From: a virus
IMG/VR virus record: IMGVR_UViG_3300030103_001381
Span: 6,523-55,775 of that record
Strand: one strand, 5' to 3'
DNA length: 49,253 nt
Shown here: positions 10,837 to 46,208 of the stretch, one piece after another
How the letters are laid out: every line of letters begins with the position of its first letter
Position numbering within the stretch: the first letter of the stretch is position 1
Translations under genes and position numbers: made by a program
Notes under the pieces: generated by a model
The model's database searches: none
What the model was told of the DNA's origin: nothing
Seen by the model: only the letters and a program-made list of their open reading frames with translations

Positions 10837-10844
10837 GAGATAAA

Positions 10845-14071: not shown

Positions 14072-14691
14072 TGTCAGGTGCTTTTCCAATATCTTCTGCT
14101 AAGTTTGAAACTCTAGGAATTAAATCTATACAAAATACTATTATATCAAAAACTGTATCTGGTAAAAAACTTGCTAGACAAATAGATAATCAAAGATTTG
14201 CATTTACAGTTAGAATAGTTACTGCAACTAGATCAGATGTTTATGGAGAGTTAATGGCATTTATAATTAAACAAAGATCAGGAAAAGAAAATTTTACAAT
14301 TATCCCACCAGAAATAGAAGATGCTAAAGGAAACGAAACAGGAACAATTTTAGTTAATGGAGTTCACGCAGTTGGAGATACTACTATTGCAGTAGATGGA
14401 CACCAAAATAATAATCCAAACGCATTTAAGTCAGGAGATTTTGTAAAATTTGCTAGTCACGATAAAGTATATATGATTGTAGCAAATGTTGATCCTAGTG
14501 GTAATGCTTCAACATTAACTATTGAGCCACCTTTACTTACTGCTCTTGCAGATAATTCAGCAGTTACTTATGACAATGTACCTTTCACAGTACATTTAAC
14601 AAATGATATTCAAGAGTTTGGAGTTGTTTCAGTTGCTAAAGATGGTGCATTATTATATCAATTTGAATTTGATGTAGAAGAATCTTTATAG
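14071..14691 (+). CDS. Distal tail/minor tail protein
   Basis: A 206-residue beta-rich protein following the tape measure with a one-base overlap. The first part (SAKFETLGIKSIQNTIISKT..RQIDNQRFAFTVRI) and last part (NDIQEFGVVSVAKDGALLYQFEFDVEESL) flank an insert with a hinge-like GVHAVGDTTIAV..SGDFVKFA segment. Position suggests the distal-tail ring or a gpM-like minor tail protein. The beginning of its copy B homologue is at 49187. Confidence 0.7.
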   Translation: MSGAFPISSAKFETLGIKSIQNTIISKTVSGKKLARQIDNQRFAFTVRIVTATRSDVYGELMAFIIKQRSGKENFTIIPPEIEDAKGNETGTILVNGVHAVGDTTIAVDGHQNNNPNAFKSGDFVKFASHDKVYMIVANVDPSGNASTLTIEPPLLTALADNSAVTYDNVPFTVHLTNDIQEFGVVSVAKDGALLYQFEFDVEESL

Positions 14692-26561: not shown

Positions 26562-27308
26562 TTATTTTTCAATACTTTCCATTTGTTCCATTAGATATTT
26601 TGCTCCAATAAAAGCATTGAATAGTTTTTTATTAAGAGGAATTTCTTTAATCTCAATTCCATTATCTTTTTTAGGTAATCTTACTATAAAAGATTTAGAA
26701 ATTTTTGATTTAGTTTCTTCCTCATACGCAAATCTATAAGCATTCAACTGCAAAAAATAGTCAAATGTTATATGATTACTTGTTTTAATATCAATCAAAA
26801 CAAGATTTCCTTTCTTGTCTTTTACAACAAGATCAAGAGTACCAGCATAGTTATATTTCTTGCAATAGATTTTCTTTTCTATTTCTACAACTTTATACTC
26901 TTGTTTATTCCACCAATCTAAAAAAAGATTCCAGCAATTTACTACTGCTTTATCAGATTGTTTAGGAATTTCTTTACCTTTTAGATAGTCCTCAACTAAA
27001 CCATGAACAACACTACCAACTAAAGCACCCTCATCTTTAAAAGTATCAGGTTTCTTTTTAGCAGTAGCAAATATTCTTTCTAGCTTTGCTCTATCTAGTT
27101 CTTCACCTACATCTAACTTTTCATTAATTAATCTTTTAACCTCGTTTAAAGGTGTATTGACTAACCACGAAGTTAGTTGTGGTTTTGGTACTCCTCTGCC
27201 ACATATTCCTGTAACAGACTCTACCTTCTTATCATCAACATAATACATATGCTTATCATCGTTATAGCTTAAGACTATGCCATTTGCTAATGGATATTTC
27301 TTCCACAT
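26562..27308 (-). CDS. PD-(D/E)XK nuclease (RecB/exonuclease-like)
   Basis: A 248-residue nuclease. Motifs: GSVVHGLVE (H102), EIEKKIYC (E142), GTLDLV (D159), LVLIDIKTSN (D173, K175) and the Q-x3-Y motif QLNAY (Q187). These are the RecB-family catalytic residues for metal-dependent DNA cleavage. With the neighbouring small DNA-binding candidate, it may form a phage recombination or end-processing module. A GAGAGG site precedes the start. Confidence 0.85.
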   Translation of the reverse strand: MWKKYPLANGIVLSYNDDKHMYYVDDKKVESVTGICGRGVPKPQLTSWLVNTPLNEVKRLINEKLDVGEELDRAKLERIFATAKKKPDTFKDEGALVGSVVHGLVEDYLKGKEIPKQSDKAVVNCWNLFLDWWNKQEYKVVEIEKKIYCKKYNYAGTLDLVVKDKKGNLVLIDIKTSNHITFDYFLQLNAYRFAYEEETKSKISKSFIVRLPKKDNGIEIKEIPLNKKLFNAFIGAKYLMEQMESIEK

Positions 27309-27762: not shown

Positions 27763-27857
27763 AGTAAACTTCCTAGAACAAAGCCAACTACAAAACACAA
27801 CCACTCTCTTCTGTAATGAAGTTCAAGTGTTCTTAATTCGTACCAATCTATTTTCAT
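27756..27857 (-). CDS. Membrane microprotein, 33 residues
   Basis: Preceded by AAAGGA at good spacing. It starts MKIDWYELRTLELHYRREWL and ends in a short hydrophobic helix (CFVVGFVLGSLLW). It overlaps the start of the next leftward gene by seven bases. The strong ribosome site supports translation, but there is no second copy to test conservation. Confidence 0.5.
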   Translation of the reverse strand: MKIDWYELRTLELHYRREWLCFVVGFVLGSLLW

Positions 27858-27870
27858 ATGTCCTTTCTTG

Positions 27871-27890
27871 CTGGGGTTGTTACACCCCAG
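27871..27890 (-). terminator. Intercistronic hairpin after the DUF932-like gene
   Basis: CTGGGGT pairs with ACCCCAG around a 6-base loop. It lies 11 bases past the stop of the leftward gene 27902-28969 and just before the next ribosome site. Lacking a T-run, it may attenuate transcription or protect the 3' end of the upstream message. Confidence 0.55.
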
Positions 27891-27901
27891 CACATTGTTG
27901 A

Positions 27902-28969
27902 TTATATTGATATTTGTGCAGGGTTATGTGCAAACACAATCAAACCACCTAGTTCTTGAAAGAATCTAGCTCTAGAGTTTGATCTATCTTCGTCATTACC
28001 CATGTTAGTTACTGCGTTAGCAAGCTCATACTTTGATGTTGTAAAAGTATCGCCAACATATTTATTTAATCTAGCAAATATGTCTGCTCTTTCTGACTCT
28101 GTAACACCATGTCGTTTTGCTAACTGCACAATTTGATGTGAGTTAATTTTTTGTTTTCTTGAGTTTAACAACCCTTGAAAACTTTCTGTCCACACATCTT
28201 CGCTATTAACAAGATCAATTTGTTTCTGCATCTTGTCAATAATTGTTATGTACTGATCGTCTTTTGTAGTATCAATTACAATTTTACCAACATGTCTTGA
28301 ATAAAATCTATTCAAGTATCTTGGAGCAACCATACCATTTGTACAAACTAATCTGTAAATAAATGGTTGAATGATTAAGCTACCACTACCAATTTCACTA
28401 TTGGTAATTGTAATACCACTTTGAACGACATCACCTTTATAAACCTCGCCTTCAAGCTTTTGATTTACAGCAGTAATATTAAGTGTATCTCTATCGTAAT
28501 AAGAATACTTAATATCTAAACCTAAATCCATAAGTTTGTTAAGTGAGTGATTTGCTACAACATCGTTATCAATTCTTTTATAACGATTTGAACAAAGTGC
28601 TCTTGCTTCGTTAATTGGAGCAGTGTCATATGTTCTCAACATTAACTCTTTCTCTTTACTATTGTTAATCCAAAAGTTAAGATTATGAGCCACAAGTTCT
28701 TGAGAAACAGGTAAACACTTTCTTAAATACTGCGTACCGATTTCTAACTTGCCACATAGCTGATTTAACGAATGATCAGTTAAAACATAGCTTCCTGTTG
28801 TTAAATGATCAACACTAATACTTGGATAAACAAATGGTAAAACAGCATCGCCATTTTCAGTATTAGTTTCTACTTTTATGCTTTTCATATCAACAAGATA
28901 ATCTCTCTTGTTTTTTGTATCTTCATTGATATTGTTAAGCATTTCTTTTACATCATGACCTTTTTTCAT
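27902..28969 (-). CDS. DUF932-like phage protein
   Basis: A 355-residue protein. The segment ALCSNRYKRIDNDVVANHSL (about 132-151), then VVQSGITITNSEIGSGSLII and FIYRLVCTNGMV, matches the conserved centre of DUF932/TIGR03299 phage-plasmid proteins, whose biochemical role is unsettled. The C-terminal third is helical. The leader contains a hammerhead ribozyme (28999-29064) and an AGGAGG site, suggesting high and specially processed expression. A hairpin follows the stop. Confidence 0.75.
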   Translation of the reverse strand: MKKGHDVKEMLNNINEDTKNKRDYLVDMKSIKVETNTENGDAVLPFVYPSISVDHLTTGSYVLTDHSLNQLCGKLEIGTQYLRKCLPVSQELVAHNLNFWINNSKEKELMLRTYDTAPINEARALCSNRYKRIDNDVVANHSLNKLMDLGLDIKYSYYDRDTLNITAVNQKLEGEVYKGDVVQSGITITNSEIGSGSLIIQPFIYRLVCTNGMVAPRYLNRFYSRHVGKIVIDTTKDDQYITIIDKMQKQIDLVNSEDVWTESFQGLLNSRKQKINSHQIVQLAKRHGVTESERADIFARLNKYVGDTFTTSKYELANAVTNMGNDEDRSNSRARFFQELGGLIVFAHNPAQISI

Positions 28970-28998
28970 GATTTCCTCCTAGTTATAACTAATGGGAC

Positions 28999-29064
28999 TG
29001 CCATCATCAGTAATTGTCAGTCACGACAATTAGACTAGCGAAATATGATTCGCTAGTTTCGGCA
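28999..29064 (-). ncRNA. Type II hammerhead ribozyme 1, in the leader of the DUF932-like gene
   Basis: Read on the minus strand: stem II 5' half TGCC; GAA (G12-A14); stem III ACTAGCGAA/TTCGCTAGT, 9 bp with a TCATAT loop, beginning with A15.1-U16.1; C17 (cleavage site, GUC); stem I TAATTGTC/GACAATTA, 8 bp with a GTGACT loop; the core CTGATGA (C3-A9); one extra T; stem II 3' half GGCA. Stems I and III are closed and stem II is open, which is the type II topology known from bacteria and phages. Cleavage would fall between 29033 and 29032. A residue inserted between A9 and G10.1 is also known in a viroid hammerhead. Confidence 0.88.
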
Positions 29065-29067: not shown

Positions 29068-29418
29068 TTACCATGCTTGATAATTTGAACGAATAGCAAC
29101 ATATTTTTTGCCATTTTTTTTATTTTCTAATTCCATAGTTTGTGAAATAGAACCACCACCATGAAAAAACTCGCACCAATATTCTGCAGATTCTTGTAGT
29201 TTTTTTTCTACAATTACAGTAAAAGACTTCCATTCAATATAATCTTTAAATATTGGACACTTTTGTTTTGACTTTTCTGCACTTGGTTTTAATTTGCCAT
29301 AGTTCCAATTAAACATTCTTGAATTATGACAGTTTGGATTTACAAAATATTTCTCAAATTCTTCTTGAGTTAATTTAAAAACATTTTGTCTTGTAGGCTC
29401 TAGTATTGATATTTGCAT
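29068..29418 (-). CDS. Hypothetical protein, first gene of the leftward operon
   Basis: A 116-residue protein starting MQISILEPTRQNVFKLTQEE, with several Trp and Cys (CHNSRMFNWNYGKL, AEYWCEFFHGGGS) and a basic C-terminal strand (KKYVAIRSNYQAW). No family was recognised. Its leader carries a second hammerhead ribozyme and a good AGGAG site. It lies immediately upstream of the first hammerhead, so the two-gene message would be cut between the genes. Confidence 0.7.
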   Translation of the reverse strand: MQISILEPTRQNVFKLTQEEFEKYFVNPNCHNSRMFNWNYGKLKPSAEKSKQKCPIFKDYIEWKSFTVIVEKKLQESAEYWCEFFHGGGSISQTMELENKKNGKKYVAIRSNYQAW

Positions 29419-29446
29419 TTGTTACTCCTAGTTAATTATATGCGAC

Positions 29447-29503
29447 TGGCATCATCAGTAGTTATCCATCACGATAACTAGACAAATTGTATTTGTTTCG
29501 CCA
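29447..29503 (-). ncRNA. Type II hammerhead ribozyme 2, in the leader of gene 29068-29418
   Basis: Minus strand: stem II 5' half TGGC; GAA; stem III ACAAAT/ATTTGT, 6 bp with an ACA loop; C17 (GUC); stem I TAGTTATC/GATAACTA, 8 bp with a GTGATG loop; CTGATGA; extra T; stem II 3' half GCCA. Compared with ribozyme 1, stem I has two compensatory pair changes, stem II one, and stem III a different length and sequence, while all core bases are unchanged. Cleavage would fall between 29481 and 29480. Loop I begins GTGA in both, perhaps a tertiary contact. Confidence 0.88.
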
Positions 29504-29552
29504 TTACTTGACTACATCGTAGGAATTACCCAGCACTTTGTGAGGACTTCAG

Positions 29553-29774
29553 TTGATTAAAGAACTTTTCTTGCTATTGCCAGAATGGGGTTGGAAGCCA
29601 TTTTTATCGAACAAGAACTCTAGGACAAAACTTAGAATTATCGCCAACTGCTCTGAAACCGAATTTTATGCTTTTATAGACGAGTTCCGATTTATACATA
29701 GTCTATACAAGAACTATGCCAAATTTAACACAAAAAGCAAAAAGTTATTTAAACACAAAAAAGCCTGTATTTAG
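29553..29774 (+). CDS. Doubtful small protein with TTG start
   Basis: A 73-residue frame starting at a TTG. The product begins MIKELFLLLPEWGWKPFLSN and ends basic (KKLFKHKKACI). It lies in the divergent region between the leftward and rightward early operons. No clear ribosome site and no second copy were found. It may be real, since the region would otherwise be empty. Confidence 0.35.
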   Translation: MIKELFLLLPEWGWKPFLSNKNSRTKLRIIANCSETEFYAFIDEFRFIHSLYKNYAKFNTKSKKLFKHKKACI

Positions 29775-29970: not shown

Positions 29971-30294
29971 ATGCTAAACGAAAATGTTAAGCAGTTTAAT
30001 ATATCTGTCGGACAAAAAATCAAAACAAGAAGATTAGAACTAAATAAAACACAAACTTGGTTAGCAAAAAAAATTGGAGTTACTTTTCAGCAAGTACAAA
30101 AGTATGAGAAAGGCTCTAATGGTACAAATCCATTTAACTTAAAACAAATTGCAAATACATTAAAAGTATCAATTTTGTATTTTTATTTAGATGGTGTTTC
30201 AACATCTTGCGTTATGGATATTTCAAGAACGGAAGAGCCATTAATATTAACTAAAGAAATGGAAATTGAAAATGATCAAAGTTCAAGTAGATAA
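29971..30294 (+). CDS. XRE-family transcriptional regulator
   Basis: A 107-residue protein with a classic XRE helix-turn-helix: KIKTRRLELNKTQTWLAKKI, GVTFQQVQKYEKG and NPFNLKQIANTLKVSI (residues about 15-70). The C-terminal tail lacks a sensor or protease domain. Its position as first gene right of the divergent region suggests a Cro/CI-like role controlling the early operons. A CAGGAGCAA ribosome site precedes it. Confidence 0.85.
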   Translation: MLNENVKQFNISVGQKIKTRRLELNKTQTWLAKKIGVTFQQVQKYEKGSNGTNPFNLKQIANTLKVSILYFYLDGVSTSCVMDISRTEEPLILTKEMEIENDQSSSR

Positions 30295-32518: not shown

Positions 32519-33141
32519 AAGTAGAAGAAGTTGATATAGATTTAATTAAACCATATAAAAACAACCCTAGAGAGATACCAATGGAGTCTGTACAAAAAGT
32601 TATGAACTCTATTAGGGAATTTGGTAACAATCAACCTATTGTAGTAGATAACGACAATGTAATAGTTGTAGGACATACTCGTTGGAAAGCATTAAAGCAA
32701 CTTGGTAAAGCAAAAGTTTTTGTAGTAAAAAAAGAATTTCCTAAAGGTCAAGCTATGGCTTATCGTATTATGGATAATCGTAGTGGCGAGGAATCTAAAT
32801 GGTCTAATAAACTATTAGCATCAGAGTTAAATATATTAAAAGATGATAACTTTGATTTGCAGTTAACAGGATTTAATTTAACAGAGTTAGAAAACCTAGC
32901 AAATGATAAAGAACTTGGCTTTGTACAAAATACAAAAGATTTAAAAGAAAACTTTAATGTTGATTTTCCTGATGGCATGGAAGTTACACATGTCAAGATG
33001 GTACAATTATTTTTAAATACTGAAACTGAAAAGGATTTTAAACTATGGTGTCAAGAACTACAAACACAATTAGGTACTGACAATTTAACTGACACAGTAT
33101 ATACAGTAATTAAAAATGCACACAATAACAGCAAAAGCTAA
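32515..33141 (+). CDS. Stand-alone ParB-domain protein
   Basis: A 208-residue protein. The N-terminal ParB/Srx-like domain (KNNPREIP, QPIVVDNDNVIVVGHTRWKA, RIMDNRSGEESKW) corresponds to that of the copy A ParB-methyltransferase. Here the methyltransferase is absent. Instead there is a different C-terminal segment (MEVTHVKMVQLFLNTETEKD, GTDNLTDTVYTVIK) also seen after ParB domains in other phages. It overlaps the TET/JBP-like gene by 26 bases and may direct the modification enzymes to DNA. That role is inference. Confidence 0.82.
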   Translation: MKVEEVDIDLIKPYKNNPREIPMESVQKVMNSIREFGNNQPIVVDNDNVIVVGHTRWKALKQLGKAKVFVVKKEFPKGQAMAYRIMDNRSGEESKWSNKLLASELNILKDDNFDLQLTGFNLTELENLANDKELGFVQNTKDLKENFNVDFPDGMEVTHVKMVQLFLNTETEKDFKLWCQELQTQLGTDNLTDTVYTVIKNAHNNSKS

Positions 33142-34072
33142 ATATACAGATCAAGAAATAAAAAAACTTGAGGGCTATTTCATACAAGATCATCACTACG
33201 ATCAAATTATAGACTATGATTGCGATGGCTACAAAGAAGATGGTAGTCCTTTGTTTTTTTTTAGAAAAAATGTAATCCCAGCAAGTATATGTGAACAAGC
33301 TTACAAAAACTTAAGAACTGCTACTGCAAAAGGTGGCAACAGAGGTAGTGCTGGTGGAGTACCACCTGATAGAAAAAACACTAACACTATGAACTTAAAG
33401 TACAACGACAAAGGCGAACTTGTGCCAGAAAAAACAACAGGAAAGACTAGAGGATTTAAAATAAAAAAAGATGGTACAATATCTAGGTTTCATAGCGCAT
33501 TCCAACAAGTTGATAGTGGTATCGCTGGATTCTTTGATAGACAAGTAAGGTTTCCATATTGCAGACAAACTATGTTTAATGAACAAAAGTTTGAGAAATT
33601 TAAAAAAGGTTATCCTTATATTAAATATATTAACGATATATTTAAAGATGTATGTCCTGAAAGATACAAAGCACAAGAGGATATGGTTAAAAAAACAAGT
33701 GAAGATTTTTATATAAAAGGTACAGTTTTTACTACTATTACAATCAACAAGAATTTTAGAACTGCTATACATACAGATAAAGGCGACTTGAAAGAGGGAT
33801 TTGGTAACCTTGGAGTATTACAAGCTGGTAATTACGAGGGTGGCTATACAATTATGCCTAAATATAAAATAGGTTTTGATGTTAGAAGTGGCGATGTTTG
33901 TTTTTTTGATGTACACGAGTTTCATGGCAATACAGAAATCAAAGCTAAAGGTAAATACGAAAGAATAAGTGTAGTTTGCTATTACAGAAAGAATATGATC
34001 AATTGTAAATCTGCACAAGAAGAACAAGAAATAGCAAAAAGATTAATAGATCGTAAAGGCTTAAATAAATAA
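33116..34072 (+). CDS. TET/JBP-like 2-oxoglutarate/Fe(II) dioxygenase
   Basis: A 318-residue enzyme. Diagnostic features of the TET/JBP class: FPYCRQTMFN (146-155), the metal-binding HTD (H219, D221) followed by GDLKEGFGNLGVLQAG, then GGYTIMPKYKIGFDVRSGD, distal His in VHEFHGN (H270 preferred) and the 2-oxoglutarate-binding Arg in YERISVVCYYR (R283). Family members oxidise the 5-methyl group of thymine or 5-methylcytosine in DNA. Here it heads a cassette with kinase- and transfer-type enzymes, which suggests the first step of a hypermodification pathway. No pyrimidine hydroxymethylase gene is present in the window. Confidence 0.88.
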   Translation: MHTITAKAKYTDQEIKKLEGYFIQDHHYDQIIDYDCDGYKEDGSPLFFFRKNVIPASICEQAYKNLRTATAKGGNRGSAGGVPPDRKNTNTMNLKYNDKGELVPEKTTGKTRGFKIKKDGTISRFHSAFQQVDSGIAGFFDRQVRFPYCRQTMFNEQKFEKFKKGYPYIKYINDIFKDVCPERYKAQEDMVKKTSEDFYIKGTVFTTITINKNFRTAIHTDKGDLKEGFGNLGVLQAGNYEGGYTIMPKYKIGFDVRSGDVCFFDVHEFHGNTEIKAKGKYERISVVCYYRKNMINCKSAQEEQEIAKRLIDRKGLNK

Positions 34073-34713: not shown

Positions 34714-35345
34714 TTAAATTTTTAAAAGAAACAGACATACAAAAAGCAATATTTAATTCGTCTAATGGTGCTAATACAAAGTTTTTACAACAAAGTCATA
34801 GTTTGTGGTACAGATTTAATAATTATCAATCTAATGCACCATTTGGACTTTACAATAATGATCAACTTGTAAGTGTTATTTTTGCAACCACAAGTGATAA
34901 AACAAAATATATTAACCTTTACGAGATAGTAACTTTACAAGGTCAAGAGGGTAAAGGATATGCTACTGATCTTTGGTCGCAGTTTGTTGAATTTTGGTAT
35001 GATGCAGGTATGCATAGAATAAAGCTATCTTGTACACCTAGTTCAGTTAGTTGGCATATGAGAAATGGTCTTATATTTTGGGCAGTTGATAAACAAGGAA
35101 GTTTAAGATCAGATCAACCATTAAAAAGGAGCATTAATGAACAAGTAGATTTTCGAGAAAAATCGCTAAAAAACCCTAGTCTTGCTTTACCTGAAAAAAA
35201 GGTAAGAATGAAATTGAGAGAAGAAGATATAGAAACACTACAACTATCTCAAAAGAAAATACTAGAAACATATCAAGCTATAAAAAAAGTAGGCGACTAT
35301 TGGTTTAGACCACATTTATATGGATTATCGAAAAAGACAAAATAG
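34710..35345 (+). CDS. GNAT-fold acyltransferase-like protein
   Basis: A 211-residue protein. GQEGKGYATDLWSQF at 78-92 is the acyl-CoA pyrophosphate-binding motif A of GNAT enzymes, with flanking strands (PFGLYNNDQLVSVIFATTSD and MHRIKLSCTP). The C-terminal third is charged and helical. GNAT-fold proteins such as Mom modify phage DNA bases, and in this cassette it may acylate or transfer onto a base. The acceptor is unknown. ATGA overlap with the glutaminase gene. Confidence 0.72.
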   Translation: MIKFLKETDIQKAIFNSSNGANTKFLQQSHSLWYRFNNYQSNAPFGLYNNDQLVSVIFATTSDKTKYINLYEIVTLQGQEGKGYATDLWSQFVEFWYDAGMHRIKLSCTPSSVSWHMRNGLIFWAVDKQGSLRSDQPLKRSINEQVDFREKSLKNPSLALPEKKVRMKLREEDIETLQLSQKKILETYQAIKKVGDYWFRPHLYGLSKKTK

Positions 35346-36261
35346 AACTAAAGCATTTTTAAGATGGTATGCTTGGTCTTTGCAGTATAAAGATTGTGAT
35401 CCACCTATATGGCTACTAAACTATTTATTTAATAGATATGAGCATAACCTAGAACAAAAGCTATGGATTTCTTGGATATATGGAACAACTTATCATTTAC
35501 CTACTGCTTGGATTATATGGAATGAATTTCCAGATTTTGATTTAGTAGGTTTAGAAAGATTAAAACAATGGAACAACGATAATTATAAAAGGTTAAGGTA
35601 TCAAACAGATACAAAGTATAACAAAGGTTATTTACCACAACAATTTGAAAGTTATAAAGAATGGATAGGTAATAGACCACAAATAGATAAGTTTGCAGAA
35701 TTAAAAACATTTGATAATGTATGGAATAGTGTTATTAAAAATTTATATAAATTTGGCAGATATTCTACTTGGTTTTATTTACAAACATTACACGAATGCG
35801 TAGGTCTTGATTTGCAACCCAGTACATTAAAATTAGAAGATTACAGTGGTAGTAAATCTCACAGAAATGGCTTATGCTATGCTCTTGGACTTGATGATTG
35901 GATAGATAAAAAGCTAAATAAAAAACAAATAGAACATTTGGAAACAAAAGCACAACAAATACAAAACACAATAAAAACAAAATATAAACTAAATAGCAAC
36001 CCATATACAATGGAAACTGCATTATGTTCCTTTAAAAAAATATTTAGAAAAAAACAAGGTAGGTATTTAGGCTATTACCTTGATAGACAGGCACAAGAAA
36101 TATCACAAGTACAAGAAGATGGTTGGTATGGTATTGAATGGGGTGTATTTTGGCAAGCAAGAACAGAAAGTTTGCACCCTACACTTTACTCAAACATACA
36201 AATCAAACCACAACTATACAGTCAGTTTTTAGATACAGGGAGTTTTAATAGACAATTATGA
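35320..36261 (+). CDS. 5-hmdU DNA kinase-type helical protein
   Basis: A 313-residue, helix- and aromatic-rich protein. Its core FGRYSTWFYLQTLHE (145-159), followed by LEDYSGSKSHRNGL (172-185) and WYGIEWGVFWQARTESLHP (269-287), resembles the HMUDK helical family, earlier called alpha-glutamyl/putrescinyl-thymine pyrophosphorylase. That domain works with a P-loop kinase to phosphorylate 5-hydroxymethyluracil in phage DNA. The P-loop partner is encoded by the next gene with a four-base overlap. Assignment rests on motif memory and context. Confidence 0.65.
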   Translation: MDYRKRQNRTKAFLRWYAWSLQYKDCDPPIWLLNYLFNRYEHNLEQKLWISWIYGTTYHLPTAWIIWNEFPDFDLVGLERLKQWNNDNYKRLRYQTDTKYNKGYLPQQFESYKEWIGNRPQIDKFAELKTFDNVWNSVIKNLYKFGRYSTWFYLQTLHECVGLDLQPSTLKLEDYSGSKSHRNGLCYALGLDDWIDKKLNKKQIEHLETKAQQIQNTIKTKYKLNSNPYTMETALCSFKKIFRKKQGRYLGYYLDRQAQEISQVQEDGWYGIEWGVFWQARTESLHPTLYSNIQIKPQLYSQFLDTGSFNRQL

Positions 36262-37276: not shown

Positions 37277-37473
37277 GATCAAACTTTTATCCTAATGGGG
37301 AATTTATACCCTATCAAATGCCACAAGATTTTAGACCAGCACAAAGAGGTCAAGGTAGTTGTGGCTCATGTGGACTTTTTTCAAGACCTCATAGTTTCTG
37401 TGGTGCATACAGAACGAGAGGTGTAAAAGATACATATACTTGTAATAATTGGCGACCTAGAAGATTAAAATAA
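37273..37473 (+). CDS. Cys-rich small protein, copy B only
   Basis: A 66-residue protein starting MRSNFYPNGEFIPYQMPQDF, with five Cys arranged CGSCG, SFCG, YTC, compatible with a small zinc- or metal-binding knuckle, and a basic end (WRPRRLK). The same position in copy A holds an unrelated coiled-coil protein. Function unknown. Confidence 0.7.
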   Translation: MRSNFYPNGEFIPYQMPQDFRPAQRGQGSCGSCGLFSRPHSFCGAYRTRGVKDTYTCNNWRPRRLK

Positions 37474-37682
37474 TGGAATTAATTTTACTTAACGATGGTT
37501 TATATAGCTTAGTTTCTGTTACAAAAGAAATGATGCAAGGCATAGAAATAATGGAAAAGGTTAATTGTTTTGATTTATGCGATATTCTTAGATTGTATCT
37601 TACTACATATTATGAGCCACCCTACAATGTTCATGTAATGAATGATGGTAGTGGAGATTTTTATGGGTGCATATGTAGATAA
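37473..37682 (+). CDS. Highly conserved 69-residue protein (copy B)
   Basis: Near-duplicate of 2556-2765 at protein level (NDGLYSLVSVTKEMMQGIEI..GSGDFYGCIC). The strong conservation through an otherwise diverged region points to an important role between the terminase genes. Confidence 0.75.
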   Translation: MELILLNDGLYSLVSVTKEMMQGIEIMEKVNCFDLCDILRLYLTTYYEPPYNVHVMNDGSGDFYGCICR

Positions 37683-37701
37683 TTTATGATAATTGTTTTG
37701 C

Positions 37702-37959
37702 ATGGCAAAGTATAGAGGCAGAACAGTTAGGCTAGGCAAGATAATGCGTGGCGATGTAAAGAAATTTAAGGTGTTCGTAAGAAACAAACGAACAGGAAAA
37801 ATCAAAAAGGTTAATTTTGGTAGTAAGACAATGTCTATTAAAAAACATATACCAGCAAGAAAAAGATCGTTTATGGCTCGTATGGGTGGAGTACTTAAGA
37901 AAGTTCGTGGACAGAAATCTTTAAGTCCTGCATATTGGTCGTTAAGGAGTTGGCGATGA
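37702..37959 (+). CDS. Basic phage protein, DUF5754-like (copy B)
   Basis: Homologue of 2785-3066, 85 residues. The start is the ATG at 37702 (MAKYRGRTVRLG), matching copy A, not the TTG three codons earlier. It carries the same KKFKVFVRNKRTGKIKKVNFG block, then PARKRSF, and ends SLRSWR. Confidence 0.7.
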   Translation: MAKYRGRTVRLGKIMRGDVKKFKVFVRNKRTGKIKKVNFGSKTMSIKKHIPARKRSFMARMGGVLKKVRGQKSLSPAYWSLRSWR

Positions 37960-38318
37960 AGCTAAATGAAAACACTAATATTTCTCTTCCTTTAAGGAAT
38001 TTAATTGCTTTATGCGTTGCTGTTGGTTTAGGGATAATTGGCTACACAGAATTGACAGCTAGGCTAACTAGCTTAGAGACTTCAAGAGAATTATTCCAAG
38101 CTGATCTACTTAAAAAATCTGAACAAAAACCAACTGACCAAGAACAGTTTATGTTGCTAGAACATGTAGCAGAGCAAGTAGAAAATATCCAAGCAGAGAT
38201 GGAAACTATGAGAAACAATAATGTCAATATTAAATATGCAATGAAAGATATAGAAAAAATTAAAGAACAATTAGAAATTATAAAAGATAAGGTAAGAGCA
38301 AATGGAAAGAGTTATTAA
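37956..38318 (+). CDS. Membrane-anchored coiled-coil protein (copy B)
   Basis: A 120-residue homologue of 3063-3425. The start is the ATG at 37956, which overlaps the preceding TGA, not the earlier in-frame start. The transmembrane part (NLIALCVAVGLGIIGYTEL) differs from copy A, but from about 38082 on the DNA is nearly identical. The border between diverged and identical sequence suggests a recombination joint. Confidence 0.75.
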   Translation: MKLNENTNISLPLRNLIALCVAVGLGIIGYTELTARLTSLETSRELFQADLLKKSEQKPTDQEQFMLLEHVAEQVENIQAEMETMRNNNVNIKYAMKDIEKIKEQLEIIKDKVRANGKSY

Positions 38319-38325
38319 TGGTTGA
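38302..38325 (+). pseudogene. Deleted remnant of the 54-residue gene of copy A
   Basis: ATG GAA AGA GTT matches the first four codons of 3409-3573, but the frame then runs into a stop after seven codons, because about 150 bases present in copy A are missing. The downstream gene now starts at 38318 within this remnant. Confidence 0.6.
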
Positions 38326-38533
38326 AACAGTTGTAGCTTTGTTATTAGTAATTAATTCTGAAATTAAAGAAGCTCGTATTCAACAAGACTTAAGTTCTTG
38401 CCTTAAAGGTAAGCGTCTGGCAATGCGTGAAGTTAAAAATGACAACATTGTTTATCAATGTATTAAAACAAAAGCAGAGTTAGAATTAAATATAGATGGT
38501 AGTAAATCAATTAAAAAACTTATATTAGAATGA
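38318..38533 (+). CDS. Small protein with hydrophobic N-terminus (copy B)
   Basis: A 71-residue homologue of 3570-3785 with only a few changed residues (for example Val2, Val45, Lys50). Same hydrophobic N-terminus and two Cys. The first ~70 bases are almost identical to copy A, while the rest shows mostly synonymous changes. Confidence 0.7.
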   Translation: MVETVVALLLVINSEIKEARIQQDLSSCLKGKRLAMREVKNDNIVYQCIKTKAELELNIDGSKSIKKLILE

Positions 38534-38754
38534 ATAAATTAGATGTTATAAAAGTATTGGCAGAAGATAAAACATTTGAAAACGAAATTAAAAACAAAGG
38601 TAGTAACGATTTAGAATTAAGAATTAAAGTATTAGAAAAAGAAATTGATACATTAAAAGCGATAATTAATCTAAAAGAAATAGAATTAAGTGCAAAAGAT
38701 GATAAAATTAAAACCTTAAAAAAGGAAGCAAAGGATATGTTGTTATATCCATAA
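38530..38754 (+). CDS. Coiled-coil protein, 74 residues, intact in copy B
   Basis: Starts MNKLDVIKVLAEDKTFENEI and continues with a regular Leu/Ile heptad pattern (LELRIKVLEKEIDTLKAIIN, IELSAKDDKIKTLKKEAK), a strong coiled coil. In copy A only the first part survives (3787 onward). ATGA overlap with the preceding gene. Function unknown. Confidence 0.65.
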   Translation: MNKLDVIKVLAEDKTFENEIKNKGSNDLELRIKVLEKEIDTLKAIINLKEIELSAKDDKIKTLKKEAKDMLLYP

Positions 38755-38769
38755 TTATGAGTATTAAAA

Positions 38770-38874
38770 ATGATAGATTGGTTTGTAGAAAAAATAGGCA
38801 ATTTTGCCAGAAAAATATTTCATTGGTCATGGAGAATTCAAACTCGCCGAAGAATTTACAGAAAGAAAAATTAA
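38770..38874 (+). CDS. Conserved 34-residue microprotein (copy B)
   Basis: Homologue of 3833-3934: MIDWFVEKIGNFARKIFHWS then a basic tail. The TAA abuts the next ATG in both copies. Trp-rich amphipathic plus basic composition is kept despite divergence. Confidence 0.6.
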   Translation: MIDWFVEKIGNFARKIFHWSWRIQTRRRIYRKKN

Positions 38875-39114
38875 ATGGAGTTTATGTTAACTATGATTTT
38901 GTGCGCATTTGTTGATGGCAAAACTACTTGTATGCCACCACATACATTTGAAACAAAGTACAAAGATGCTTATAGTTGTATGCTTGATGGTTATACAAAG
39001 TCTTATGATAAAATTCTTGAACTCGGTAAGGAAGATGTTAATAGATTTAATATCTATATAAAATTTGGTTGCAATGAAAATCAATTTAACAAAACCCCAG
39101 TATCAAGTAAGTAG
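38875..39114 (+). CDS. Small Cys-containing protein with hydrophobic N-terminus (copy B)
   Basis: A 79-residue homologue of 3935-4165 (MEFMLTMILCAFVDGKTTCM, SCMLDGYTKSYDKILELG, IKFGCNEN). All four Cys are conserved. The end overlaps the large terminase start by 41 bases. Confidence 0.7.
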   Translation: MEFMLTMILCAFVDGKTTCMPPHTFETKYKDAYSCMLDGYTKSYDKILELGKEDVNRFNIYIKFGCNENQFNKTPVSSK

Positions 39115-40315
39115 TTCTGATAAAAGATTTCGAGTTTTAGTATCAGGTAGAAGATTTGGAAAGACTTATCTTTGTATTACTGAAATGATGAAATACGCAA
39201 CAAAAGTAAAAAAAAATATATGGTATGTTGCACCTACATTTAAAATGGCTAGAGAGATTGTATGGCTAAAGCTAAAACAAATGCTATCTGATTTTAATTG
39301 GATTGAAACTATTAATGAAACAAACCTATCAATTAAGATAAGAAACTCTGGTAGCATTATATCGTTAAAAGGTTGTGAGAACTACGACTCTTTGCGTGGA
39401 GTAGGAATTGATTTTCTTATACTTGACGAGTTTGCAGACATTGATGAAAAGGCATGGACAGAGGTATTAAGAGCATCTGTTGCAGACACACAGGGCGATG
39501 TTTTAATGTGTGGGTCGCCTAAAGGCTTTGGTAATTGGTCATACAGAATGTATGAAAAAGGCAAACGAGAATCACAGTGGGATAGTTTTCAGTTTACTAC
39601 TTTACAGGGTGGCATGGTACCAGCAGAAGAAATAGAACAAGCAAAGCAAGATGTTGATATTAGAACATTTAGACAGGAGTTTGAGGGTACATTTGAGAAC
39701 TATGCTGGTGCTGTCTATTACAACTTTCATGCTGTTGATAATGTATTAGAAAAAAAGATTGATTGGCAAAAACCTTTACACATCGGACTTGATTTTAATG
39801 TCGATCCAATGAGTGCCTGTGTTGCACAAATTGATAGAGATAAAATACACTTTGTTGACGAGATAGTAATTTACTCAAGTAATACTGACGAAATGGTACA
39901 AGAAATTAGAGATAGGTACGGAACTAAAACTAGAATATTTGTTTATCCTGATCCAGCTTGTCGTCAAAGAAAAACATCTGCTGGTGGAAGAACTGATTTA
40001 ACAATTTTACAGAATGCTGGGTTTAGTGTTAAGTGCAAACTAAAACATAGTCCAATTCGAGATAGAGTTAATGCAGTCAATTCAAGATTAAAGTCAGCTG
40101 ATGGTAAGAGGTATATTTTTATCTCGCCATCTTGCAAAATTATGATAAAAGGGTTACAAAGACAGATATACAAGGAAAACACAAATATTCCTGACAAGGA
40201 AGAAGGCTACGATCATATGAATGATGCTATTGGTTATTTAACTGAAATTGTAAAACCTTTAACAACAACACCTCGTAGTTTTAGCCCTCAAAGATGGAAC
40301 ATAAAACAAAGATAG
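39074..40315 (+). CDS. terL: Terminase large subunit (copy B)
   Basis: A 413-residue homologue of 4134-5372 with all motor motifs: SGRRFGKT, FLILDEF, CGSPKGFGNW, and nuclease motifs LDFNVDP, YPDP and HMNDA. Start at ATG 39074 (MKINLTKPQ). It differs clearly in sequence from copy A over its whole length, so A and B are diverged motors rather than a fresh duplication. Confidence 0.95.
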   Translation: MKINLTKPQYQVSSSDKRFRVLVSGRRFGKTYLCITEMMKYATKVKKNIWYVAPTFKMAREIVWLKLKQMLSDFNWIETINETNLSIKIRNSGSIISLKGCENYDSLRGVGIDFLILDEFADIDEKAWTEVLRASVADTQGDVLMCGSPKGFGNWSYRMYEKGKRESQWDSFQFTTLQGGMVPAEEIEQAKQDVDIRTFRQEFEGTFENYAGAVYYNFHAVDNVLEKKIDWQKPLHIGLDFNVDPMSACVAQIDRDKIHFVDEIVIYSSNTDEMVQEIRDRYGTKTRIFVYPDPACRQRKTSAGGRTDLTILQNAGFSVKCKLKHSPIRDRVNAVNSRLKSADGKRYIFISPSCKIMIKGLQRQIYKENTNIPDKEEGYDHMNDAIGYLTEIVKPLTTTPRSFSPQRWNIKQR

Positions 40316-40316
40316 T

Positions 40317-41732
40317 ATGGCATATTCTAGAGAACAAGCATTAGACCTACACAAAGACTTCGAAGAAAATATAAAAAATTGGGAATATTATATTCGTTCT
40401 TACAATGGTGGATATGACTACATGATAGGTCAATATCTTAACAGATACAATTTAGAACTTGATAACGAGTTTAATCAAAGACTAGCAAACACTCCTTGTG
40501 ATAACCATTGCAAAAACATTATACAAATTTATTCATCATTTTTATTTAGAGTAAAAGCAAGTAGAGACTTTGGTGGTATGCAAGACGAGGCTAGTTTAGA
40601 ATCGTTCTTAAAAGATGCAGATTTAGAGGGTAATAGTTTTACATCTGTAATTAAACAAGCACAGAATTATGCGTCTATTTATGGACACTGCATGATGATA
40701 TTAGATAAACCAAATATACAAACAACAACAAAAGCAGAAGAACTAAATCAAGAAATAAGACCATATCTTTCAATCGTAACTCCAGAGAATATTTTTGATT
40801 GGAACTTTGAAAGACAACCTAATGGTAAGTACATATTAAACTACTTAAAAATCAGAGAAGAAGTAGATAAAAGTGGTGGCTCGTATATGCGACTATGGTA
40901 TCCTGATAAAGTTGATACTATTTATGTTGAAGAACACGGAACAGAGCCAACATTAATAGATACTGCCGAGAATCAGATTGGCAAAATACCAGCAGTTATT
41001 TTATACAATTCTAAATCACACAAGAGGGGAATTGGTCAGTCTGACTTAACAGATATTGCAGATATGCAAAAAGCAATTTACAACGAATTTTCAGAAATAG
41101 AACAACTAATAAGACTAACTAACCATCCATCATTGGTTAAAACAAATAATGTTAATGCAAGTGCTGGTGCTGGTGCAATTATAGAAATGCCTGATGAAAT
41201 GGAACCAAATCTTAAACCATACTTATTACAACCATCAGGGCAAAACCTTGTAGCAATTATGGACTCTATTACAAAAAAAGTAGAATCAATTAATAGAATT
41301 GCACACACAGGAGCAGTAAGAACTACAAAATCACAAGTTCAATCTGGTATTGCTTTACAAACAGAGTTTGAATTATTAAATGCAAGATTATCAGAAAAAG
41401 CAGATAACTTACAATTAGCAGAAGAGCAAATTTTTAAATGCTATGCAGAATATCAAAACACAACATTTGATGGCGAAATAAATTATCCAGACTCATTTAA
41501 CATTAGAGATTACGCAACTGATTTAGTTTTCTATCAACAAGCAAAAGCAGTTAATGTACCATCAAATACTTTAAACAAAGAAATTGATAAAGAAATAGCA
41601 AGAGCAGTTGTAGATGATGATGAAAAACTATCTGAAATATTTGATGAAATAGACTCTAATGCAGAGGTAGGTCAGTTTACACAAGACGAGCCTGTACAAC
41701 AAGATCAAGAAGTAGAAGAAGAAGAAGTTTAA
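40317..41732 (+). CDS. Portal protein, full length (copy B)
   Basis: A 471-residue portal. Compared with copy A it retains residues 246-334, including DIADMQKAIYNEFSEIEQLI, HPSLVKTNN and the helix LVAIMDSITKKVESINRIAH. The C-terminus is acidic (QDQEVEEEEV). It starts one base after the terminase stop and forms the DNA entry ring for the copy B capsid. Confidence 0.9.
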   Translation: MAYSREQALDLHKDFEENIKNWEYYIRSYNGGYDYMIGQYLNRYNLELDNEFNQRLANTPCDNHCKNIIQIYSSFLFRVKASRDFGGMQDEASLESFLKDADLEGNSFTSVIKQAQNYASIYGHCMMILDKPNIQTTTKAEELNQEIRPYLSIVTPENIFDWNFERQPNGKYILNYLKIREEVDKSGGSYMRLWYPDKVDTIYVEEHGTEPTLIDTAENQIGKIPAVILYNSKSHKRGIGQSDLTDIADMQKAIYNEFSEIEQLIRLTNHPSLVKTNNVNASAGAGAIIEMPDEMEPNLKPYLLQPSGQNLVAIMDSITKKVESINRIAHTGAVRTTKSQVQSGIALQTEFELLNARLSEKADNLQLAEEQIFKCYAEYQNTTFDGEINYPDSFNIRDYATDLVFYQQAKAVNVPSNTLNKEIDKEIARAVVDDDEKLSEIFDEIDSNAEVGQFTQDEPVQQDQEVEEEEV

Positions 41733-41735
41733 TGA

Positions 41736-42764
41736 ATGTCAGATATTGTACAAGACTTTACAGAATACAGAATTAGGCAAATAGAAATTGCTGAAGCAAA
41801 ATACTACGAATCATTAATACAAACTTTAGATAAAATAGAACGAGAAATTACAAGTCTTGCTGGTAGAACTTTACCAACAGATGATTTAGATAGACTGTAT
41901 GATCTTAAAATTGCAGTATCTATGCAACCAAAGATTAGAACGATTCTAGAAAAGGAATATTTAGCATGGTCAGATACAGTTGTAAGAGAGGGTTTTACAA
42001 AACAAGCAAAAAGAATAGAAAAGGCATTTAAGAGAATAGGTAATATTCCTGTTGAGTTTCAACAATTAACAAATGCAGATTTGACACTTATTACAAATTT
42101 AAAAAGACAATCATTTACACAATTTAAAGATGTATCAAATACAATGACAAGAAGAATTACTGAAAAAATATATCAAGCTACATTGACAAGTGTAGAATTT
42201 ACAGAATTAGAAAGAGAATTAAGACAAACGATAAATGGTATTTATGCTAGTTCTGATGACAAGAAAATTAACGCATTGGTAAAAGATATTAAAAAAGACG
42301 AAGTCAAAATTAAAAGATTAGATAAAAGAACTGCACAAGGTAAAGTTGTAAGAGCAAGGCTTGATAAAAACATACAGACTTTACAATCAAAATTTGCAAG
42401 AGATAGAGCTGGGGAAAACATGAAACGATATGCTGGTCAAATATTAAACGATTCATTACGAGAGTTTGATGCACAACTAAACCTTGCAAAGTCTAAAGAT
42501 GCTGGTTTAACATATGTTAAATATCAAGGGTCAAATATACCGACTACTAGAGATTTTTGTAGGCTTGTAAGATCAGGATCATATGATAAAAGAAATGGTG
42601 GACTATTCACAATTGATGAAGTCAACAAGCTATGGAAAAGCAGAGGTTGGTCAGGTAAAAAATCTGGTAATCCTTTAATTGTTCGTGGTGGTTATAACTG
42701 TCGTCATCAATGGTCATTTGTTAATCCAGATTGGTATGATACAGATGGCAAACTTAAAATATAA
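41736..42764 (+). CDS. MuF/SPP1 gp7-like minor head protein (copy B)
   Basis: A 342-residue homologue of 6526-7515. Conserved EGFTKQAKRIEKAFKRIGNI, SKFARDRAGENMKRYAGQIL and the C-terminal GNPLIVRGGYNCRHQWSFVN. A longer Lys/Asp-rich linker (DIKKDEVKIKRLDKRTAQGK) stands where copy A has a shorter one. Confidence 0.85.
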   Translation: MSDIVQDFTEYRIRQIEIAEAKYYESLIQTLDKIEREITSLAGRTLPTDDLDRLYDLKIAVSMQPKIRTILEKEYLAWSDTVVREGFTKQAKRIEKAFKRIGNIPVEFQQLTNADLTLITNLKRQSFTQFKDVSNTMTRRITEKIYQATLTSVEFTELERELRQTINGIYASSDDKKINALVKDIKKDEVKIKRLDKRTAQGKVVRARLDKNIQTLQSKFARDRAGENMKRYAGQILNDSLREFDAQLNLAKSKDAGLTYVKYQGSNIPTTRDFCRLVRSGSYDKRNGGLFTIDEVNKLWKSRGWSGKKSGNPLIVRGGYNCRHQWSFVNPDWYDTDGKLKI

Positions 42765-42773
42765 GGAGATACA

Positions 42774-43472
42774 ATGTCAGAAGAACAAAACGCAGTAGAA
42801 AATACTGAAACAGAAAAAACAGAAACACCTGTTGTAGAAAAAGCAGAAGAAAAAACATACAATCAAGCACAAATAGATAACATGATTAAAGCAAGACTTG
42901 AGCAAGAAAAAGCAAAGAATCAAAGAATGCTTGACGAACAAAAGAAGAAAGATGAAGAACTTCTTAAAGAAAAGCAAATACAAGAAGCAAAGACAAAAGC
43001 TGATATAGAAAACTTGATGAAACAAAGAATACAAGAAAAAGATCAAGAAATTCTTAATTACAAAAATATGATTAAAAAAGAAAAAATCGATAATTCTGTA
43101 ATGTCAGTGGCTTCAAGAATGAACGCAGTTAACCCACAACAGATCGTAGAATTGATGAAAAGCAATATTAAACTTTCTGATGATAATCGTATTGAGATAC
43201 TTGATAAACATAATAATATTAGGTATAACGACAAAGGGGAACTACTTACGATTGAGGAATCAGTCAAAGAGTTTTTAGATGCTAACCCACATTTCTCGCA
43301 AGGGTCTAAGGCTGGTGTAGGGAGCCAGAGTAGTATCGAGGGTAAAACTGTAAAACCTTTTAACATTCAGGACTTGGATATGAGTAAACCAGAAGATCGT
43401 TTAAAATACTCAGAGTATCGTAAAAAACGAGATATGGCTCCTGTTCAAATTAATAATAACTTAAACAAATAA
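42774..43472 (+). CDS. Capsid scaffolding protein (copy B)
   Basis: A 232-residue homologue of 7528-8229 with the same plan: acidic N-terminus, coiled coil (about 35-110), Gly/Ser stretch and VKPFNIQDLDMSKPEDR tail. AAGGAG precedes the start. Confidence 0.85.
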   Translation: MSEEQNAVENTETEKTETPVVEKAEEKTYNQAQIDNMIKARLEQEKAKNQRMLDEQKKKDEELLKEKQIQEAKTKADIENLMKQRIQEKDQEILNYKNMIKKEKIDNSVMSVASRMNAVNPQQIVELMKSNIKLSDDNRIEILDKHNNIRYNDKGELLTIEESVKEFLDANPHFSQGSKAGVGSQSSIEGKTVKPFNIQDLDMSKPEDRLKYSEYRKKRDMAPVQINNNLNK

Positions 43473-43488
43473 ATTATAGGACATAAAA

Positions 43489-44334
43489 ATGGCAAACGAA
43501 ACAACATCGTCAACACTCTCGGAACTTTATACTGAGATTGTTGCAGAAGCATTGTTTACAGCTAGTGAGAGATCAATAATGAGACCTCTTGTTAAGAACT
43601 ATGCTATCGCTGGTGGTGGAAAGTCAGTTGAAGTTCCAATTTACTCTGCAGTTTCAGCAGCAGCAGTAAACGAAGCAACTGATTTATCTAACACAGCAAT
43701 TAACCCAACATCAGTTACAATAACTGCATCTGAAAATGGTATTATGACAACTCTTACAGATTTAGGTAGAAACGCATCACCTAGAAATGTATCAGCTGAC
43801 ATAGGTAGATTATTCGGAGAGGCTATTGCTAAAAAAATTGATACTGACCTTACTGCATTGTTTGATGGATTCTCAACAGCAGTTGGAACAGATTCTGCGG
43901 CACTAACTGTTGCAAAAATGTTTGAGGCAGTAGCAAATTTAAGAAATAGCGCAGTTCCAATGGCTGATGTATCTGCAGTTTTACATCCAATGATAGCTTA
44001 CGATCTTAAAGCAAATTTAACTAATACTTTTGCAAATTCAAATGCAAATGATTTAGCAAATGAAGCATTAAGAAATGGCTTTGTTGGTAGAATTGCTGGT
44101 GTTCCAATTTTTGAAACATCAAACATAGCAAATACAGGTACTGCTGGTGACTACAAAAATGGTGTATTCCATAGAGACGCACTAGGTTTAGCAATGATGC
44201 AAGACCTAAAAATCGAAACTCAAAGAGATGCTTCTCTTAGAGCAGACGAAATTGTAGCAACTGCAGTTTACGGAGTTGGCGAATTACAAGACAGTTACGG
44301 TATTGAACTGATAGCTGATTCATCAATCCAATAA
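43489..44334 (+). CDS. Major capsid protein (copy B)
   Basis: A 281-residue homologue of 8245-9087. The E-loop/spine region, ALFDGFSTAVGTDSAALT and ETQRDASLRADEIVATAVYG are conserved; surface-like stretches (ASERSIMRPLV, NSNANDLAN) differ. A different hairpin follows (44347-44368). Confidence 0.9.
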   Translation: MANETTSSTLSELYTEIVAEALFTASERSIMRPLVKNYAIAGGGKSVEVPIYSAVSAAAVNEATDLSNTAINPTSVTITASENGIMTTLTDLGRNASPRNVSADIGRLFGEAIAKKIDTDLTALFDGFSTAVGTDSAALTVAKMFEAVANLRNSAVPMADVSAVLHPMIAYDLKANLTNTFANSNANDLANEALRNGFVGRIAGVPIFETSNIANTGTAGDYKNGVFHRDALGLAMMQDLKIETQRDASLRADEIVATAVYGVGELQDSYGIELIADSSIQ

Positions 44335-44346
44335 TGGATACTAGTT

Positions 44347-44368
44347 TATGGGGTAGCAATACCCCATA
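44347..44368 (+). terminator. GNRA-capped hairpin after capsid gene B
   Basis: TATGGGGTA pairs perfectly with TACCCCATA around the tetraloop GCAA, a stable GNRA loop. It sits 12 bases after the capsid stop and before the AAGGAGG site of the next gene. There is no T-run, so 3'-end protection or partial termination are both possible. Confidence 0.65.
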
Positions 44369-44385
44369 GGCATTAAGGAGGAATT

Positions 44386-44601
44386 ATGGATATAAAGTTA
44401 ACAAATGGTAAAAAAGTTATAACAAGATCAAAAGAGCAATACGATGCTAATCCATTACATTTTAAAATGAGAGGATATGCTCCTGTTGATACAGTTAAAA
44501 AAGAAATTAAAAAAGTTACAGCAAGAGATTTAAGTGATAAAATAGTTGAACTAAAAACAAAGAAGAAAAAAAATGTTAAAACAGCTAAAAAAAAAAATTA
44601 A
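44386..44601 (+). CDS. Small basic protein after capsid (copy B)
   Basis: A 71-residue homologue of 9144-9332: MDIKLTNGKKVITRSKEQYD, MRGYAPV and a Lys-rich tail. AAGGAGG lies at ideal distance. Position suggests a capsid-associated or DNA-binding role. Confidence 0.7.
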   Translation: MDIKLTNGKKVITRSKEQYDANPLHFKMRGYAPVDTVKKEIKKVTARDLSDKIVELKTKKKKNVKTAKKKN

Positions 44602-44635
44602 AAAAATATTTAATTGGATTGTAGGTATTAGGTAA
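44573..44635 (+). CDS. Possible 20-residue basic/hydrophobic microprotein
   Basis: Short frame MLKQLKKKIKKIFNWIVGIR overlapping the previous gene by 29 bases, its stop sharing a base with the connector start. It takes the place of the 33-residue membrane peptide of copy A (9329-9430) and is also amphipathic, but sequences are not clearly related. Confidence 0.3.
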   Translation: MLKQLKKKIKKIFNWIVGIR

Positions 44636-45120
44636 TGGCTAATTTTACTGGAGCAAATGTTATTACGACATCAGATGTTTTAAAATATCAACCAGACGCA
44701 TTTGACTTTGGTATTTCTACAACTGCTACAGAAACAACAAACTTTTTAGCACAAACTACTAATGATATTTTAAGAGAACTGCGTATTCGTTGGTGGCCAA
44801 TTTATAAGCAAAATATTTATACAGATATTACAGTTTTAAACACAGCAGAAATGGTTAATACAAAAATAAATTTAGATCAATTTGAACGAGCAGGCGTTTA
44901 TTTGTTTTTACATAGATTTTATTTACCAGCACTAACAAAATTTAGACCAGAGGCAGATAAAGATAGATTTGAAAGAATGATAGAATTTTATAGAAGTGAA
45001 TTTAATAATGAGTTTCAATCTATTTTAGAAGATGGTGTAGAGTATGATAGTGATTCTAATACTACTATTTCTGTTAATGAAAGAGAGTCTTTGCATGGAA
45101 GTGGCAGACTTACAAGATAA
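44635..45120 (+). CDS. Head-tail connector protein (copy B)
   Basis: A 161-residue homologue of 9432-9917. The first ~47 residues are nearly unchanged (FTGANVITTSDVLKYQ, FLAQTTNDILR), whereas the C-terminal third diverges. It should form the ring between portal and tail-completion proteins. Confidence 0.65.
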   Translation: MANFTGANVITTSDVLKYQPDAFDFGISTTATETTNFLAQTTNDILRELRIRWWPIYKQNIYTDITVLNTAEMVNTKINLDQFERAGVYLFLHRFYLPALTKFRPEADKDRFERMIEFYRSEFNNEFQSILEDGVEYDSDSNTTISVNERESLHGSGRLTR

Positions 45121-45578
45121 TGCTTTCTGCAAAAGTAACATCTAATTTACCACAAGTAAGAAAAAGATTTAATAAATTTTTTAAACAATTTCCAGATATT
45201 GTTACAAAAGGTTTAGAACAAGCTGGTGTACAATTAAAAGAAATTATTATTGATAGAACAGACAAAGGTTTAGATTTTAATAAAAGAAGATTTGTTCCTT
45301 ACAGCCCATCTTATGCAGAAGAAAAAGGTAAAACAGTAGTTAATTTGCAAGACACAAATAGAATGTTGCAGTCTATTGATAGTAAATTAAAAAGTAAAAA
45401 CAAAGTTCAAGTATTTTTTAGAAGCCAAACACAAGCAAAAAAAGCATTGTTTCATCAAAAAGGATTAGGTAAACTACCTGAAAGAAAGTTTTTTGCATAT
45501 AACTTTAAAACTGAAAAATTGATAAGAAGAACATTTGAAGATTTTATGAAAAAAGAAATTAAAAGGTTAAAAATATGA
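45120..45578 (+). CDS. HK97 gp10-like virion morphogenesis protein (copy B)
   Basis: A 152-residue homologue of 9917-10399 with the motif FNKRRFVPYSPSYAEEKGK, a DTNRMLQSI segment and a RKFFAYNFKTEK end. Overall sequence is quite diverged, but motif order and very basic character are kept. Confidence 0.75.
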   Translation: MLSAKVTSNLPQVRKRFNKFFKQFPDIVTKGLEQAGVQLKEIIIDRTDKGLDFNKRRFVPYSPSYAEEKGKTVVNLQDTNRMLQSIDSKLKSKNKVQVFFRSQTQAKKALFHQKGLGKLPERKFFAYNFKTEKLIRRTFEDFMKKEIKRLKI

Positions 45579-46012: not shown

Positions 46013-46020
46013 GAGTTAAA

Positions 46021-46185: not shown

Positions 46186-46208
46186 GAGTAATAGTAGTAA
46201 AAGGATAT

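Follow-up and report, generated by a model that had tools for sequence, protein, structure and literature searches.

I propose that two type II hammerhead ribozymes, here called HH1 and HH2, probably process transcripts of the early operon that runs leftward in a Pelagibacter-type phage, and that each overlaps a hairpin that would lock the outcome after the cut. The proposal is built on comparison of sequences, and it begins with a stretch of 49,253 nucleotides from a viral record, referred to as the window, whose coordinates are used throughout.

A first-pass annotation of the window had read a complete type II hammerhead on the minus strand, with a 9-bp stem III starting from A-U, C17 in GUC, an 8-bp stem I, CUGAUGA, and a closing 4-bp stem II. 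All of these elements can be located, in that order:

28999..29064, minus strand: HH1, type II hammerhead (sequence, RF02276 match, covariation)
29064-29061/29002-28999, minus strand: stem II of HH1, 4 bp, UGCC with GGCA (sequence)
29060-29058, minus strand: GAA of HH1 (sequence)
29057-29049/29042-29034, minus strand: stem III of HH1, 9 bp, first pair A-U (sequence)
29033, minus strand: C17 of HH1, within GUC (sequence)
between 29033 and 29032, minus strand: predicted cut of HH1 (position after C17)
29032-29025/29018-29011, minus strand: stem I of HH1, 8 bp (sequence)
29010-29004, minus strand: core CUGAUGA of HH1 (sequence)
29003, minus strand: extra U of HH1, U9a (sequence)
28996..29022, minus strand: pseudoknot of HH1, loop I GACU 29022-29019 with tail AGUC 28999-28996 (covariation)

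The phage-type topology claimed for the element, with stem II open, is upheld by sequence, by covariation, and by the covariance-model run that had been suggested as a check: RF02276 (Hammerhead_II) matches HH1 within a 171-base stretch at 41.4 bits, above the curated Rfam cutoff of 37 (E=1.3e-7). A default fast-filter Rfam scan of the whole window did not pick HH1 up. Since the short stretch gives the match and the whole window does not, the fast filters evidently lose AU-rich cases such as this one. The fold z-score of the HH1 stretch is -4.4 relative to shuffles. As judged by the RF02276 match, the compensatory changes described below and the fold z-score, HH1 is not a chance pattern.

Beyond what the first-pass annotation saw, there are the pseudoknot between loop I and the tail, a second hammerhead, a hairpin that competes with the ribozyme and a structured leader RNA. 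The second hammerhead, HH2, was found by searching the record with HH1, and lies 440 nt upstream of it:

29447..29503, minus strand: HH2, type II hammerhead (similarity to HH1, layout, model R2)
29503-29500/29450-29447, minus strand: stem II of HH2, UGGC with GCCA (sequence)
29496-29491/29487-29482, minus strand: stem III of HH2 (sequence)
29481, minus strand: C17 of HH2, predicted cut between 29481 and 29480 (sequence)
29480-29473/29466-29459, minus strand: stem I of HH2 (sequence)
29458-29452, minus strand: core of HH2, followed by U9a at 29451 (sequence)

HH2 has no match in Rfam, falling below detection by RF02276, and its class rests on its layout together with a score of 65.9 bits for model R2, which was made from relatives. 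Its stem II is perfect yet differs from that of HH1 (UGGC/GCCA vs UGCC/GGCA). Both elements have the core CUGANGA...GAA, the pair A15.1-U16.1 and a base 17 that is not G; in both, loops close stems I and III and stem II is open; and in HH1 loop I pairs with the tail (GACU/AGUC).

The two hammerheads flank a small gene at the head of the leftward operon:

29971..30294, plus strand: helix-turn-helix regulator, divergent, first gene of the rightward operon (phrog_8, E=2.7e-11)
29068..29418, minus strand: 116-aa gene between HH1 and HH2, without Pfam or PHROG match
28980-28975, minus strand: Shine-Dalgarno sequence AGGAGG of the DUF932 gene (sequence)
27902..28969, minus strand: DUF932 gene, 355 aa (PF06067, E=1.5e-6)
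26562..27308, minus strand: PD-(D/E)XK exonuclease, further down the leftward operon

HH1 does sit, as had been annotated, in the leader of the DUF932 gene with the ribosome site 3' of the predicted cut; the ATG at 28969 comes 63 nt after the cut. HH2 is placed likewise in the leader of the 116-aa gene, whose start codon lies 62 nt after the predicted HH2 cut. Because no minus-strand open reading frame of at least 60 codons is listed between HH2 and the regulator at 29971, HH2 appears to precede the first gene of the leftward operon. A consensus scan found no good sigma-70 promoter. Just before the gene that follows DUF932, a strong GC-rich hairpin, GCUGGGGU...ACCCCAGC (27820-27899, minus strand), occupies the spot where some relatives have a third hammerhead.

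Two other features of the record deserve mention. A block of structural genes occurs twice in the window (2553-14121 and 37470-49237), about 35 kb apart and 72-89% identical. Two related phages, each about 35 kb long, are both represented in part in the 55.8-kb record, whether as tandem prophages or through chimeric assembly. On the plus strand a TET/JBP-like oxygenase and an amino acid:DNA transferase stand close together (33116-34072 and 35320-36261), a sign of hypermodified phage DNA.

Then there is the evidence from relatives. A structure-based search for hammerheads was made in 72 viral contigs encoding a relative of the DUF932 protein; among known phages the sole real relative by DNA similarity is HTVC112P, a cultured Pelagibacter phage. 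Type II hammerheads were found before the DUF932 gene, before its upstream gene and before its downstream gene. In an alignment of 30 of these sequences, 95.9% of cells are paired and 134 are double-changed, as against 40 +/- 5 after shuffling and at most 22 when the alignment is slid. Compensatory changes occur in 14 of the 21 pairs, in stems I, II and III, and the core and C17 are conserved. The pseudoknot of loop I with the tail (helix 4) has 83% of its cells paired and one compensatory pair (G-C in 18, A-U in 10). The U between A9 and G10.1, which the first-pass annotation considered unusual, is nothing of the kind: 45 of the 56 elements of the phage group have U9a, and so do many unrelated phages, ruling it out as a rare oddity.

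The distance from cut to start codon is 60-70 nt in nearly all type II elements. Most relatives have a hammerhead in the DUF932 leader, though its class differs, and some have none there (L020-L026, L045, L046, L052), from which it follows that the hammerhead is not essential at that place. When models of both classes were run over 15 longer records, mostly fragments, strong matches were confined to the leftward operon. In unrelated phages, a gene begins downstream of 73 of 101 hammerheads, with a median distance of 58 nt from the cut, compared with 9 of 98 on the antisense strand. Some unrelated phage contigs carry arrays of type II elements (eight at L143:9364-12145, eight at L224:3620-6690, seven at L195:9592-6230), in which nearly every hammerhead is separated by a few bases from the gene in front of it and by about 30 nt from the gene that follows.

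The first gene in many relatives, including HTVC112P, is preceded instead by an element that resembles a type III hammerhead in its anatomy: core, C17, open stem III, and hairpins I and II. A reading of these as 'half hammerheads' is ruled out, the missing GAA and stem III strand being located downstream. Stem III has 5-9 bp and stem II 2 bp, U9a is mostly present, and a pseudoknot joins loop I to loop II (UUUAGC/GCUAAA). Open stem III, hairpins, core and C17 are shared with RF00008 and related type III models; the 2-bp stem II with U9a and the loop I-loop II pseudoknot are not. The two elements searched against the Rfam hammerhead models (L075 and L054) gave no match up to E=10. Covariation is moderate, with 93.5% of cells paired and 25 double-changed against 9.4 shuffled, mostly in stem I. 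The cut would fall 65-83 nt before the start codon; in HTVC112P (MN698246) it is predicted after the C17 near position 3996, minus strand. At the loci examined, a type III element always heads the row and the internal position is taken by type II, and only type II would leave the upstream cistron with a 3' hairpin.

Directly 5' of the first hammerhead, between the divergent operons, lies another conserved RNA:

29514..29693, minus strand: conserved structured leader RNA, about 180 nt (match of model R1 at 29693-29489; covariation)

It consists of helices P1, P2, P3, P4 (with the conserved loop UAAUUCUAAGUUUUG) and P6. Across 30 aligned leaders, 22 pairs in five helices are paired in 92.9% of cells; double-changed cells number 99, as opposed to 31 +/- 4 shuffled and 7-35 when slid, and all six pairs of P3 show a compensatory change. 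None of 4227 Rfam models matches it. Its own covariance model matches about 44 loci, several of them outside the training set. Where present, the leader occurs once per record and always adjoins the first hammerhead. Most of the viral contigs picked up by a pattern scan were already among these, so the leader appears restricted to the leftward operon; no second, put-like copy was found on the rightward side. A motif scan of bacterial genomes gave two matches only (L340 and L341), taken as chance, and inspection of L340 disclosed no sign of a leader. Pairing of a leader loop with the motif AACUAG before the Shine-Dalgarno sequence is also rejected, as the motif is not enriched. In eight relatives (L017, L031, L033, L035, L036, L057, L059, L070) a different conserved block replaces the leader, about 300 nt upstream of a type III hammerhead.

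The leader might act as a small RNA once released, in antitermination, or as a sensor. Under the first of these, the promoter-proximal cut would serve mainly to release the leader as a small phage RNA acting in trans. The strong covariation, the single copy per record and the place directly before the first hammerhead are what one would expect, as is the constancy of the leader while the class of hammerhead behind it changes between II and III. A role in cis, for example in antitermination, predicts the same pattern, however; no target was found, and internal hammerheads have no such leader. I regard release as a rather unlikely main purpose.

The probable role in processing the operon brings us to the feature that distinguishes these ribozymes, a hairpin overlapping the 3' end of each:

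28990..29006, minus strand: competing hairpin of HH1, UGAUGG 29006-29001 with CCAUUA 28995-28990, loop CAGUC
29440..29452, minus strand: competing hairpin of HH2, 4 bp, AUGC 29452-29449 with GCAU 29443-29440

One strand of the hairpin is made of N7, G8, A9, U9a, 10.1 and 10.2, and its partner is the six bases past a 5-base loop, so it and the catalytic core with stem II are mutually exclusive. At least 4 bp of it can form in 52 of the 56 elements of the group; with tails permuted among elements, the count averages 17.5 and never exceeds 28. Position 10.2 has two partners, 11.2 and a downstream base, and the triplet 11.2/10.2/downstream partner reads A/U/A in 31 elements, C/G/C in 14 and G/C/G in 9, or 54 of 56; the other two read C/G/A, with pairing across a 6-base loop. 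An A stands opposite U9a in 44 of the 45 elements that have U9a and in 1 of the 11 that do not. The alignment counts support the hairpin, with one pair fully compensatory plus one coupling between insertion and partner, and few independent events lie behind the covariation. No such tracking of 10.2 by the downstream base is seen in phage hammerheads from outside the group. The hairpin is missing from 4 of the 56 and from most other phage type II hammerheads; similar ones appear in 13 of 106 general elements outside the group (e.g., L154, L205, L221, L145, L249), where 3.3 are expected, so that it may have arisen more than once.

I read the competing hairpin as a lock that would form after the cut. 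From sequence, structure and location I infer the cleavage itself, the order of folding and any effect on the stability, translation or fate of the mRNA, as follows. Each ribozyme would fold during transcription, its fold held by the pseudoknot of loop I with the tail, and would then cut after C17. The downstream cistron would gain a 5'-OH end about 62 nt ahead of its start codon, with stem I immediately serving as a cap, while the upstream RNA would carry the stem III hairpin at its 3' end, finished by a 2',3'-cyclic phosphate. Following cleavage, the 3' strand of stem II would swap partners, pairing with sequence before the ribosome site to make the competing hairpin, worth -2.3 to -4.9 kcal/mol in the 3' products computed as examples. 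The swap would free the 5' fragment and prevent religation. The net effect would be to turn a polycistronic transcript and its leader of about 180 nt into separate mRNAs with standard ends. The promoter-proximal gene also has a hammerhead, with no cistron to separate it from; that the first gene is included, that successive genes are served and that the distance from cut to start is nearly fixed together suggest a role in making mRNA 5' ends.

The main rival places the hairpin before the cut, as an off-state that makes the ribozyme a switch responding to transcription speed, a protein or a ligand, perhaps by way of the structured leader RNA that precedes most first-gene copies. Since the hairpin takes up G8, A9 and a strand of stem II, it must block catalysis, and in uncut HH1 the hairpin and stem II without the pseudoknot come out nearly equal in stability (-24.1 vs -24.0 kcal/mol). 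Against this, transcription reaches the 3' strand of the hairpin only after the ribozyme is complete, and the energies leave out the pseudoknot. Pairing between leader and ribozyme was sought and none was found, and internal hammerheads retain the hairpin with no leader RNA adjacent. A switch is improbable, more so than release of the leader.

Type II hammerheads in phages, their pseudoknot and their clusters flanking phage genes were reported in 2011 (Perreault et al., PMC3088659), as was cleavage in vitro and in vivo in E. coli by tandem phage hammerheads of comparable layout (PMC3088659). The present elements share with RF02276 type II the open stem II, the CUGANGA/GAA core, A15.1-U16.1, C17, the loop I-tail pseudoknot, and their occurrence in phage genomes as clusters flanking genes; they differ in the commonness of U9a, the competing hairpin, the 3-4 bp stem II and the AU-rich stems. 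The tandem hammerheads of Agrobacterium, Azorhizobium and Clostridium prophage regions likewise number several per operon, each beside a gene, with cleavage shown (PMC3088659). They differ in the genes concerned, and the available portion of that paper mentions neither leader RNA nor competing hairpin.

A pair of ribozymes flanking one gene could be taken to excise the RNA of the 116-aa gene (about 450 nt), with ligation by host enzymes yielding a circular or otherwise stabilised RNA. The ends would be 5'-OH and cyclic phosphate, and such ends are the substrates of RtcB-type ligases. Many relatives have a single hammerhead, however, and when Perreault et al. examined tandem phage hammerheads for products that were spliced or circular, there were none (PMC3088659), making excision very improbable. 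Least credible of all is a decayed relic spread by recombination: stem II is degenerate in some relatives (L051) and the whole element is missing from others, but the compensatory changes in all stems, the invariant core and the constant distance to the start codon speak strongly against it.

Processing by hammerhead would have a parallel in the early mRNA of phage T7, where RNase III cuts a polycistronic message into cistrons with hairpin-protected ends. The two would work alike with no relation by family; here the RNA is predicted to cut itself, giving 5'-OH and cyclic phosphate ends. No paper on pelagiphage hammerheads was found in the literature searched, whose coverage excluded most subscription journals. 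To my knowledge three things are new: the competing hairpin kept by three-way covariation, the type III variant at the promoter-proximal position, and the leader RNA of about 180 nt. A bolder version of the proposal, to which I would give a little less than even credence, is that the leftward operon opens with this undescribed RNA joined to a hammerhead that severs it, and that in type II elements a strand-exchange hairpin, whose downstream half mimics stem II's 5' strand, drives off the cut fragment and resets the leader.

Both HTVC112P and its host, Pelagibacter HTCC7211, are in culture, which opens the predicted processing to a test in infected cells through the mapping of 5'-OH ends, and the competing hairpin is a feature that can be mutated directly. 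The function of hammerheads in phages has been listed as an open question (PMC6155905), and the conserved hairpin and the leader, itself a candidate for a new RNA family, give clues to it. On the bolder version of the proposal, a single evolved RNA device, placed before one gene after another, would combine self-cleavage with release of the product and maturation of the leader.
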